From Alphaproteobacteria bacterium (GTDB lineage: Bacteria > Pseudomonadota > Alphaproteobacteria > Bin65), in the NCBI GenBank assembly GCA_021776685.1, contig JAJFFJ010000037.1:1-49697 (forward strand): a stretch of 49,697 nucleotides of DNA, written 5' to 3'. This document shows, in pieces, positions 24,293 through 30,389 of the stretch. Under the pieces are notes generated by a model. It ran no database searches. It had not been told where the DNA came from and was given only the letters and a program-made list of their open reading frames with translations. Each line of letters starts with the position of its first letter. The first letter of the stretch is position 1. A program made the position numbers and the translations under genes.

Positions 24293-25071
24293 GCTGTAGT
24301 TGGGCATTCCATAGCTTCGGGCGATGCGCAATCCCTTCCGCTATTTCAACAGCTCGCCCGAAATCATTCGCCTCACGGTGATGATGTACATCCGCTATCC
24401 CAGGTCGCTCAGACAAGTCGAAGATATTCTGACCGAGCGCGGTATCGATATCTGTCACGAATCGGTGCGTTTCTGGTGGAACCGATTTGGCCCGCTATTC
24501 GCTTCGGAGCTCAGGAAGCGGCGCGTGCAACAGCAACGACACTACTCCCGTTGGCGCTGGCATCTGGACGAGGTGTTTGTGAAGATTAACGGGGAGACGC
24601 ACTATCTCTGGCGGGCGGTGGATCATGAGGGCGAAGTACTAGAGGTCTTTGCCACAAAACATCGAGATCGCGCGGCGGCGCTTAAGTTTCTGAAGCAGAC
24701 AATGAAACGCTATGGCCGGCCGAAAGTACTCGTGACCGATCGTCTTCGATCATACCGGGCTGCAATGATGGTGATCGGCAACGCAGCGTCTCAGATGTGC
24801 GGGCGTTGGCGCAACAATCGGGCGGAAAATTCGCATCAGCCGTTTCGAAGACGTGTAAGCGCGATGGCGAAATTCCGGGAAAGGATAACCCTTCAGAAGT
24901 TTGCCGCCGCCCACGCCTCGATTCACAACCATTTCAATTTAGAGCGCCATCTTATCGGACATGAAATATTCAAGCAAAATCGCTTTATCGCCCTGGCTGA
25001 GTGGCGACAGCTGGAGGCCTAGAACGCTAGGCCGATCTGGCCACTTTCGCCCTGATTGCCTTAGTCTGACA
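24273..25071 (+). mobile_element. IS6-family insertion sequence, about 799 bp
   Basis: The element is built around one complete IS6 transposase. The proposed ends are the imperfect inverted repeats TGTCAGA (24273-24279) and TCTGACA (25065-25071), matching at 9 of the first 11 bases. The 799-bp length suits the family. The eight bases flanking each end differ (GCGGGCAG left, ATCTCCGA right; left read as 24265-24272), so no target duplication is visible, which suggests later recombination. The right end abuts exactly the 46-bp repeat that starts at 25072. Confidence 0.65.
24324..25022 (+). CDS. IS6-family transposase, intact
   Basis: The 232-residue DDE transposase has an N-terminal helix-turn-helix (LRQVEDILTERGIDICHESV) and the catalytic triad D82 (WHLDEVFVKING), D139 (VLVTDRLRSY) and E168 (NNRAENSHQPFRRR). 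The spacing between the second D and E is normal for IS6. There is no frameshift, so the element may still be active. IS6 elements move by copying and leave cointegrates, which fits the duplicated fragment beside it. Confidence 0.93.
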   Translation: MRNPFRYFNSSPEIIRLTVMMYIRYPRSLRQVEDILTERGIDICHESVRFWWNRFGPLFASELRKRRVQQQRHYSRWRWHLDEVFVKINGETHYLWRAVDHEGEVLEVFATKHRDRAAALKFLKQTMKRYGRPKVLVTDRLRSYRAAMMVIGNAASQMCGRWRNNRAENSHQPFRRRVSAMAKFRERITLQKFAAAHASIHNHFNLERHLIGHEIFKQNRFIALAEWRQLEA

Positions 25072-28211: not shown

Positions 28212-28442
28212 TCAGCTGCAGCAGGCCGCGTCCTGCTGTATCGGCGGACAGGGAACCGTGCCGTAGGAGCAATAGACGCAACAATCGCCCTGGAGCGGTT
28301 TGAGCACCACGCCACATCCAGGGCAGTCATAGAAATACTGGCAGGCATCGGTTGGCATCACGTCCGTTGCCTGATGGCCGCAGTCCGGGCAGGTCAGCAT
28401 CGATTCAAGGATGACTTCAGAAACGCCTGTCTGGATTGTCAT
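28212..28442 (-). CDS. GDCCVxC domain protein of the mercury locus
   Basis: The 76-residue protein has ten cysteines: TCPDCGH, DACQYFYDCPGCGV, GDCCVYCSYGTVPCPP and AACCS. The GDCCVYC motif defines a family of small thiol-rich proteins, some of them selenoproteins, that occur with mer genes; here all positions are Cys. The two CPxCG pairs look like a zinc-ribbon that could also hold mercury. AAGGAG lies before the ATG at 28442. It sits downstream of merT on the same strand but has its own MerR-type promoter 163 bp upstream. A role as a cytosolic Hg(II) buffer or carrier is inferred. Confidence 0.85.
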   Translation of the reverse strand: MTIQTGVSEVILESMLTCPDCGHQATDVMPTDACQYFYDCPGCGVVLKPLQGDCCVYCSYGTVPCPPIQQDAACCS

Positions 28443-28570
28443 GGGGCTTCTCCTTCAGATGGCGCAGCGAGATATCGGCCTACACATTTGGCTCGTCTTC
28501 CTTGGGTGCCCGAGCCCACAGGTGTTCCGGCTTCCGCCTGCTCCCGTTCGCGCAGATTGGCTCCATCCAT
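28439..28570 (-). CDS. Possible 43-residue leader ORF overlapping the GDCCVxC start
   Basis: In the leader between the second mer promoter and the GDCCVxC gene, an ATG with a GAAGAG-type ribosome binding site opens a 43-codon frame. Its stop overlaps the next start as ATGA, which would allow translational coupling. The peptide (MDGANLREREQAEAGTP...) has no recognised pattern, so it may be chance. Confidence 0.2.
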   Translation of the reverse strand: MDGANLREREQAEAGTPVGSGTQGRRAKCVGRYLAAPSEGEAP

Positions 28571-28604
28571 CTCTCTTCACTCTCCGCTTCGTGCGATTGC
28601 TTGC

Positions 28605-28635
28605 ACCTTGATCCCTGTATGTACTCCAGACTCAA
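28605..28635 (-). promoter_or_regulatory. MerR-type promoter/operator for the GDCCVxC gene
   Basis: On the minus strand a -35 of TTGAGT (28635-28630) and a -10 of CAAGGT (28610-28605) are separated by 19 bp holding CTGGAGTACATACAGGGAT. The long spacer and CAAGGT resemble the classic mer promoter (TTGACT, 19 bp, TAAGGT). It shares TTGAGT-CTG, AGT and TACAG at identical positions with the merB promoter. Confidence 0.65.
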
Positions 28636-28677
28636 ACACTTTCTCCCTTGCGCCGCGGCGCCCGCTGCATCTCACGA

Positions 28678-29106
28678 TTACAGCATCGAGATCAGCCAAT
28701 CTTCGTAGTAGGGATAGGCAAAGGCCAGCAGCGCGAACGCTGCCGAAACCCAAAGCATCACCTGAACCAGGACAGACGAGAGCCGAAATCTCTCAGCTTC
28801 ACAGGCTTTGCCCTGCGCACACAAAATCCGCGGACGCAGGTAGACGAGATAGGCGCCCCCTAAAAACACCAGCAATGCGGCGATGGCGAAATATTCGCGA
28901 TATGGCGCCAGCGACATGAGATTGCTGGCAAAGGCACCGCCGAGGCCGAGCCCCATCAAGATGAGCGGCAAAGCGCAGCACGAAACCGCCAGCAGTCCGA
29001 CAAGTACCCCGCCGAAAGAAACCAACCCCGACGTGGTATTGCCGACCGGTTCCAGCTCCATCGCATCGACGGGTTGTCCGCTGCTGCCCATTTCCGTACC
29101 TGTCAT
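28678..29106 (-). CDS. merT: Mercuric ion transporter MerT
   Basis: The 142-residue inner membrane protein moves Hg(II) into the cytoplasm. Three hydrophobic helices are visible. The first carries the conserved Cys pair in LAVSCCALPLILMGLGLGG, and the cytoplasmic loop carries the second pair as LCAQGKACEAERF. The N-terminus has a longer polar stretch than usual. AGGAGA lies before the start at 29106, 33 bp after merB. No merP gene is present next to it. Confidence 0.9.
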   Translation of the reverse strand: MTGTEMGSSGQPVDAMELEPVGNTTSGLVSFGGVLVGLLAVSCCALPLILMGLGLGGAFASNLMSLAPYREYFAIAALLVFLGGAYLVYLRPRILCAQGKACEAERFRLSSVLVQVMLWVSAAFALLAFAYPYYEDWLISML

Positions 29107-29139
29107 TGGTGTCTCCTGTTGGATCGGTTTTGGTGGGCG

Positions 29140-29802
29140 CTAGAACTGCATGTCGGGATAGCGCAGGCGGTTTCGTTGTCGGGCCAGGTCGACGGCTTGG
29201 TTCAGCGACAGTACCGTGGCGCCCGTATCGCCGACGCCTGCCGCATCAAATTCAGGACGCGAGGCGTAGAGGCTGATGTGATTGCAGAAGGCGCCCCGGA
29301 GATCATCGCGGCACTGATCCAGATCCGGCACGAGCCAGGACATCACGCAGCTCTCCGGGTCGGCTTCGACACTCCCGCCAGTCCCGATCCTGGCCGTCAG
29401 ATCCTGGCCCGAATGAGGGCATTTCGTCTGAAGCCGAGCTTCCAGGCCAATGATCTCGGGCAGGAACAAGGCGTCGAAGACACACCAAGTAAAGAGCTGC
29501 TTGCCGCCGAAAGAAAACCGATGACGGGTGGGCGACAAACTCAGCCCTATAAATGCGGTGACCAGACCTTCCCGGTCGCGTTCAAAGGTCGACGCTGGCA
29601 GACTGGAAAACCAGTTTTCGACGTCAGCCTGATCGACGTTCAGTGTGTCGGCGATTTGGCGAGGACTGACGGGCCGGCCGCCGGCGAGGAGGCGGTAGGT
29701 GGAGACCGACAGGCCCTGAATCACTTGTGTATCGGCGCCAATATAGGTGCCGGAAATTATTGTCGAGATTTCTGCCTGCCCGGCCATTTCAGGCACCATC
29801 AT
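29140..29802 (-). CDS. merB: Organomercurial (alkylmercury) lyase MerB
   Basis: The 220-residue enzyme cleaves the carbon-mercury bond of organomercurials to give Hg(II) and a hydrocarbon. The catalytic triad of Cys-Asp-Cys is visible: Cys and Asp in FTWCVFDALFLPEI (C96 and D99 in the reference MerB) and the second Cys in RGAFCNHISLYAS (C159). The helical N-terminal domain and SLSPTRHRFSFGG are also present. ATG ATG at 29802 and 29799 follows GGAGG, so the start is set there and not at an upstream TTG. The MerR-type promoter lies about 55 bp upstream. It is first in the operon with merT. Confidence 0.9.
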   Translation of the reverse strand: MMVPEMAGQAEISTIISGTYIGADTQVIQGLSVSTYRLLAGGRPVSPRQIADTLNVDQADVENWFSSLPASTFERDREGLVTAFIGLSLSPTRHRFSFGGKQLFTWCVFDALFLPEIIGLEARLQTKCPHSGQDLTARIGTGGSVEADPESCVMSWLVPDLDQCRDDLRGAFCNHISLYASRPEFDAAGVGDTGATVLSLNQAVDLARQRNRLRYPDMQF

Positions 29803-29853
29803 CGACCTCCATGGGGACAAGGGAACTGCGACCCCTTTCTCGCTTATGTGCCG

Positions 29854-29884
29854 AATATCGTGTCTGTACCAACTACAGACTCAA
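29854..29884 (-). promoter_or_regulatory. MerR-type promoter/operator for merB-merT
   Basis: The -35 TTGAGT (29884-29879) and -10 GATATT (29859-29854) are 19 bp apart on the minus strand. A perfect 7-bp dyad, GTCTGTA and TACAGAC around CCAAC (29862-29880), lies between them. This is the layout of MerR-family promoters, where the regulator untwists an over-long spacer. It also faces merR across the divergent gap, so MerR could repress its own gene. Confidence 0.85.
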
Positions 29885-29978: not shown

Positions 29979-30389
29979 ATGGACATGATCATGAAACGAA
30001 GCGAGCTTGCGCAGGCCACCGGCTGTAATCTGGAGACTGTTCGCTACTACGAGAATATTGGCGTGATGCCGCCGCCACGCCGCTCGGAAAACGGCTATCG
30101 GGTCTATGAAGAAGAAGACCGGAAACGGCTCAACTTTGTCATGCGCGGCCGGGAACTTGGATTCAATCTGGAAGAGATCAAGGGATTGCTGGCGCTGTTG
30201 GATACAGACAGCGTGACCTGCGCAGAGGTCTATACCCGCACGGAAAACCATCTGACTTCTGTCAGACAGAAAATCCGAGCCCTCAAGAAATTGGAGAAGG
30301 TGCTGGCGGAGACCGCTTCAAAATGCACCGGCACCGATGCGCCGGAGTGCCCGGTGATCGATGCCCTGGCGGGCGAAATGCCGGGGTGA
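29979..30389 (+). CDS. merR: MerR-family mercury-responsive regulator
   Basis: The 136-residue regulator has the winged HTH (LAQATGCNLETVRYYENIGV, then RSENGYRVYEEEDRKRL), a dimerising coiled coil (SVRQKIRALKKLEKVLAET) and three cysteines placed as in mercury-binding MerR: one in DSVTCAEVY before the coil and two in SKCTGTDAPECPVIDAL after it. These three bind Hg(II) across the dimer. The start at 29979 has GGAG ten bases upstream; ATGs two and four codons later are alternatives. It is divergent from merB. Confidence 0.9.
   Translation: MDMIMKRSELAQATGCNLETVRYYENIGVMPPPRRSENGYRVYEEEDRKRLNFVMRGRELGFNLEEIKGLLALLDTDSVTCAEVYTRTENHLTSVRQKIRALKKLEKVLAETASKCTGTDAPECPVIDALAGEMPG

Follow-up and report, generated by a model that had tools for sequence, protein, structure and literature searches.

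Gene content of the locus

The window, by which we mean the whole stretch of 49,697 nucleotides of alphaproteobacterial DNA that was analysed, contains merB, merT and a gene for a small GDCCVxC-domain protein on the minus strand, together with a divergent merR (Table 1). The merB product scores 146 bits against PRK13239, under the cut-off of 193, and its WCxxD and FCxH cysteine motifs align with solved MerB; the merT product has an SCC motif in its first membrane segment. A gene for an IS6-family transposase lies a few kilobases from the mer locus, at 24324–25022, which is consistent with mobility of the region.

Table 1. Features of the mer locus, in window coordinates
Feature	Position	Strand	Basis
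GDCCVxC-domain protein, 76 aa, cysteine-rich	28212..28442	minus	NF041374, 100.8 bits (cut-off 40)
Putative P2 leader, ~155 nt	28443..28598	minus	ends in Shine-Dalgarno-like AAGGAG (28455–28450); sequence read directly
P2, putative second, weaker MerR-type operator/promoter	28635–28605	minus	TTGAGT CTGGAGTACATACAGGGAT CAAGGT (-35, 19-bp spacer, -10), read directly
merT, mercuric transporter	28678..29106	minus	Pfam PF02411, 67 bits (above cut-off)
merB, organomercurial lyase	29140..29802 (probable start 29799 or 29802)	minus	Pfam PF03243, 76 bits
P1, putative MerR-type operator/promoter of merB-merT	29884–29854	minus	TTGAGT CTGTAGTTGGTACAGACAC GATATT (-35, 19-bp dyad-bearing spacer, -10), read directly
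merR, Hg-type MerR regulator	29979..30389 (probable start 29979 or 29991)	plus, divergent from merB	TIGR02051 best family

No protein encoded by the genome, which is 98.9% complete, matches MerA above the cut-off: the best candidate reaches 378.6 of the required 454 bits and has neither the N-terminal signature nor the C-terminal cysteine pair of MerA. Likewise, no MerP was found in the genome with the curated family model. Lacking merA, the locus is not a complete broad-spectrum mer operon (merB plus merA). Since neither MerA nor MerP passes its model, merB is unpaired, and the GDCCVxC protein is a candidate for its Hg(II)-handling partner.

Across 74 relatives of the GDCCVxC protein, 19 alignment columns are invariant, ten of which are cysteines. 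Its predicted fold is a confident model (pLDDT 86) that has no significant match among solved structures in the PDB (best E 0.67), so that no function follows from the fold, and no literature on “GDCCVxC” was found. The ten invariant cysteines, together with a confident model that lacks a PDB match, suggest a metal-binding protein, and nothing more specific than that. In Proteobacteria and Bacteroidetes alike, GDCCVxC genes are preceded by merT, merTP or merF; they also occur in other metal settings, for instance next to ars-like genes, and the protein is therefore not strictly a mercury protein. MerA was found within 6 kb of GDCCVxC in one of 80 named loci (L076–L155). Among 385 genomes of the class, 60 encode a GDCCVxC protein over the cut-off and 34 a MerA; as only 11 encode both, GDCCVxC systems mostly do without MerA. 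Three GDCCVxC matches (G305:C9, G216:C26, G131:C160) contain one in-frame TGA each and are possible selenocysteine forms.

Two MerR-type operator/promoters

By reading the sequence, we confirmed the two promoter-like elements of the initial annotation, including their coordinates, the -35 box and spacer length that they share, the CTG, AGT and TACAG common to both spacers, the two -10 boxes and the orientation toward lower coordinates. P1 lies in the gap between the divergent merR and merB, the same place as the operators of relatives, and its dyad is a perfect 7-bp one (GTCTGTA-N5-TACAGAC). The dyad of P2 is imperfect, with the consensus broken at one position in each half-site; of 12 dyad positions in the relatives' operator, P1 matches 11 and P2 matches 10. 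Although its -10 box is poor, P2 keeps the -35 box, both outer half-sites (CTG and TACAG), the 19-bp spacing and a workable distance to a Shine-Dalgarno sequence and ATG. The leader, put at about 160 bp in the initial annotation, measures about 155 nt, and GDCCVxC is the first gene downstream of P2. By eye, P1 and P2 have no likeness beyond the operator core, and we rejected the idea that P2 is a recent copy of P1.

A joint pattern, TTGASTCTGNAGTNNNTACAG, was derived from P1 and P2 themselves, and tests based on it are hence partly circular. At up to three mismatches, P1 and P2 are its sole matches in the window (0.07 expected from shuffles), and across the 4.54-Mb genome they are its only exact matches; sites with three mismatches are, genome-wide, no more numerous than in the reversed control. 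For a non-circular test, we built a weight matrix on 33 operators of relatives, none from this genome (P1 and P2 were thus excluded), and scanned the window and the relatives' loci with it, while the remaining genome was covered by pattern searches. P1 scored 32.9 bits (exact p per position 1e-11) and P2, the second-best distinct matrix site in the window, 18.9 bits, compared with 1.7 bits for the best unrelated site there. A score as high as that of P2 occurred at none of 5 million random positions, and the far flanks of the relatives' loci contained no matrix site of at least 16 bits in 343,000 positions. The P2 score is nevertheless lower than any leave-one-out score of a training site (26.5–44.6 bits), these sites having been preselected with at most one dyad mismatch. 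Measured against the simple consensus of the relatives, TTGNNN-CTGTAG-N3-CTACAG, P1 has one mismatch and P2 two. Judged by position and sequence, P2 is a real site, yet weaker than every training site.

Operators in related loci

In alphaproteobacterial relatives, the interval that separates merR from merT or merF holds sites resembling TTG[A/C]NN-CTGTAG-N3-CTACAG-N4-TANNAT. In about 29 merB-less loci, a single operator is followed by a gene for a transporter, which is merT or merF (at times succeeded by merP) or encodes some other small membrane protein, and GDCCVxC comes next; none of these loci has operators ahead of both the transporter gene and GDCCVxC, and in no other examined locus does an operator stand immediately 5' of GDCCVxC without an intervening gene. 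A second operator before GDCCVxC is not a general feature, and none was found conserved in relatives: theirs is a single one ahead of merT or merF, and in loci with two, the second serves merT.

Three relatives whose MerB is related to that of the window (40–44% identity) have at least two CTGTAG-N3-CTACAG operators and one MerR gene, the operators dividing merB from merT. G017 has one operator beside merR facing merB and another between merB and merT; G246 has an operator on either side of merR, one for merB and one for merT; and the Bradyrhizobium plasmid CP069301 has operators before merB and before merT, plus others. Sites of G017 and G246 were part of the matrix training set, while those of CP069301 were not. 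The matrix had no match in G291 and G566, two merB loci of the class that are more distant. In the alphaproteobacterial merB loci L206 (7704, 8900), L207 (7137, 7617) and L210 (4114, 4844, 5794), two or more MerR-type operators separate merB from merT-merA. Splitting among several putative operators thus recurs in the closer merB types, and control of more than one operator by a single MerR would apparently be the usual layout for alphaproteobacterial loci with this type of merB. The window resembles G017, G246 and CP069301 in its one MerR gene, its related MerB and its two or more operators of the same class; in those three, however, the second operator lies ahead of merT, with merA further on, whereas that of the window lies ahead of GDCCVxC and merA is missing. 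Going by sequence likeness, the window is a variant of the multi-operator merB locus in which the second site has moved to GDCCVxC.

In L010, a locus from the same family as the window genome, merP occupies the gap between merT and GDCCVxC where the window has P2, and the origin or retention of P2 is therefore probably tied to the loss of merP. P2 probably came, or was kept, as merP was lost and merB was put ahead of merT. Scanning the P2 leader for reading frames revealed nothing MerP- or MerF-like, which rules out a relic of either gene within it.

The MerR regulator

TIGR02051 is the best family for the merR product (123.1 bits, E 8e-36), although the score is under the cut-off of 150.85; the CueR model comes next at 121.5 bits, with a cut-off of 147.4. 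Its best solved relative is 4ua1, with whose three cysteines the cysteines of the VTC, SKC and PEC motifs align. Alignment to 4ua1 and CueR thus reveals a three-cysteine Hg(II) site, with a cysteine where CueR has serine and where the genome's own CueR-like protein has alanine. The MerRs of the related loci have the same triad, and the triad favours Hg rather than Cu as the predicted ligand of this MerR. No other Hg-type MerR was found in the genome, and this neighbouring protein provides an encoded cognate regulator.

Proposed transcription units

In the established mechanism, MerR sits on an over-long spacer, and Hg(II) causes an untwisting that permits transcription to start. Applied to the window, this would mean that without Hg(II), MerR bound within the over-long spacers keeps RNA polymerase inactive, and that upon Hg(II) binding by MerR the spacer is untwisted so that the -35 and -10 boxes become aligned. 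P1 would be an ordinary divergent mer operator driving merB-merT. P2 would be a lower-affinity site of the same class, adding an Hg-induced GDCCVxC transcript, with its leader and good Shine-Dalgarno sequence, to the read-through from P1. We consider it probable, at roughly two chances in three, that one MerR acts at both operator/promoters, P1 and P2, and that P2 is the secondary one, which adds Hg-induced transcription of GDCCVxC. This model is built on sequence, position and likeness to the relatives' operators, from which we infer MerR binding, the response to Hg, promoter strength and read-through.

The initial annotation had suggested that P2 may head a separate, later-activating unit. 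We found no terminator-like site between merT and P2, which makes read-through from P1 into GDCCVxC likely, and the P1 transcript would probably extend in part into that gene; a full separation is thus not upheld. The sequence holds no timing information, and what a weaker operator predicts is lower occupancy, which need not mean later induction: weaker binding at P2 can mean a higher leak or a lower induction, and does not imply an order in time.

Of the other readings, the best survivor is that P2 is a decayed, inactive relic of a rearrangement (of a merT- or merF-proximal operator, for example), and that GDCCVxC is transcribed only by read-through from P1, as in relatives. The low matrix score and imperfect dyad of P2 fit such decay, as do the failure to see a terminator between merT and GDCCVxC and the co-transcription of merT or merF with GDCCVxC from one operator in relatives. 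However, decay should not spare just the -35 box, the outer half-sites and the spacing, all of which are intact in P2 together with the workable distance to the start of the gene, and we regard the relic as rather improbable, at perhaps a third of the standing of an active P2.

It is very unlikely that P2 serves a MerR-family sensor of the CadR or PbrR kind, which would place GDCCVxC in a Cd/Zn/Pb response. The operator class of P1 and P2, the alphaproteobacterial mer type CTGTAG-N3-CTACAG, is also the CadR motif: CadR of Pseudomonas prefers CCTGTAGTTACTACAGG, which has the same core and is nearly identical to P2 (PMC12301328), and the core alone therefore cannot separate Hg from Cd/Zn. The right half of P2, TACAGGG, is even slightly closer to CadR than that of P1, and the ars-like neighbourhoods mentioned above indicate that GDCCVxC genes are found with other metal genes too. 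The genome, at 98.9% completeness, holds four MerR-family genes and no more: one CueR-like, two non-metal and the merR of this locus. CadR, PbrR and ZntR were not found in it, on which ground we rejected control of P2 by CadR or ZntR; control by CueR was likewise rejected, as 8 of the 14 positions in the CueR consensus are not matched by P2. Since the only other metal-type gene of the family is CueR-like, the MerR of the locus is the likely regulator of both P1 and P2, P2 being a weaker site. Elsewhere, operator-like sites of the same class lie by other MerR-family or metal genes, possibly of CadR/PbrR type (L095 6654, L219 6314, L078 8928).

A chance resemblance of P2 is the least credible reading: about four other, unrelated sites scattered over the genome also fit the simple consensus of the relatives at up to two mismatches, but the matrix gives P2 an exact p of 2e-8 per position, or ~5e-6 for the whole 236-bp gap when only the appropriate strand is counted, and the genome's two exact matches to the joint pattern share one locus.

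The proposal that one MerR controls both sites therefore stands in part. MerR-type operators, a sole and adjoining Hg-type MerR and the similar layout of related merB loci argue for it, while the full split of the regulon is not borne out. The spacer of 19 bp, within the 19 or 20 bp of MerR-regulated mer promoters, had been taken as the mark of MerR control; alone it is insufficient, as it is the dyad that identifies the site, and CadR prefers the same dyad (PMC12301328).

A merB locus without merA

MerB is encoded without MerA in many genomes, and it has been stated as an open question how the cells survive the Hg(II) that is released (PMC8261052). The locus is a case of this kind, with merB, merT and GDCCVxC and a plausible MerR operator ahead of each. 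A speculative and, in our estimation, unlikely extension is that MerR doses GDCCVxC from its own promoter so that the protein takes up Hg(II) released by MerB, an end-point that would stand in for reduction by MerA. If P2 works, GDCCVxC stands directly within the mercury response, as a testable candidate. Moreover, the recurrence of multiple operators in related merB loci offers a simple annotation rule for such loci.

Comparison with known mer systems

TnMERI1, from Bacillus megaterium MB1, has several mer transcription units under MerR, separate merB units among them, with more than one operator/promoter; the presence of merB3 and merR2 genes in it is confirmed in the literature. Compared with the window, its operators are of the Gram-positive kind and its gene content is different.

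The window resembles Tn501/Tn21 in its one MerR, its divergent regulator gene and a dyad between -35 and -10 boxes set 19 bp apart, the spacing of the Tn501/Tn21 mer operator-promoter (PMC11049809). Unlike these transposons, it has a second putative operator inside the locus and no merA, and P1 and P2 each miss 7 of the 14 positions of the Tn501/Tn21 dyad, TCCGTAC-N4-GTACGGA.

Of the same operator class is the Methylobacterium-like mer cluster of pMR68 from Pseudomonas K-62, whose putative mer operator, GCACCTGTAGCCGCTACAGGTTG, has the same dyad as the window class (TTGCAC, dyad CTGTAGCCGCTACAG, -10 CATAAT; PMC3737084). In pMR68, however, merT-merP-merF-merA-merB1 form one operon with one mer operator, before merT1, and no GDCCVxC promoter is described (PMC3737084).
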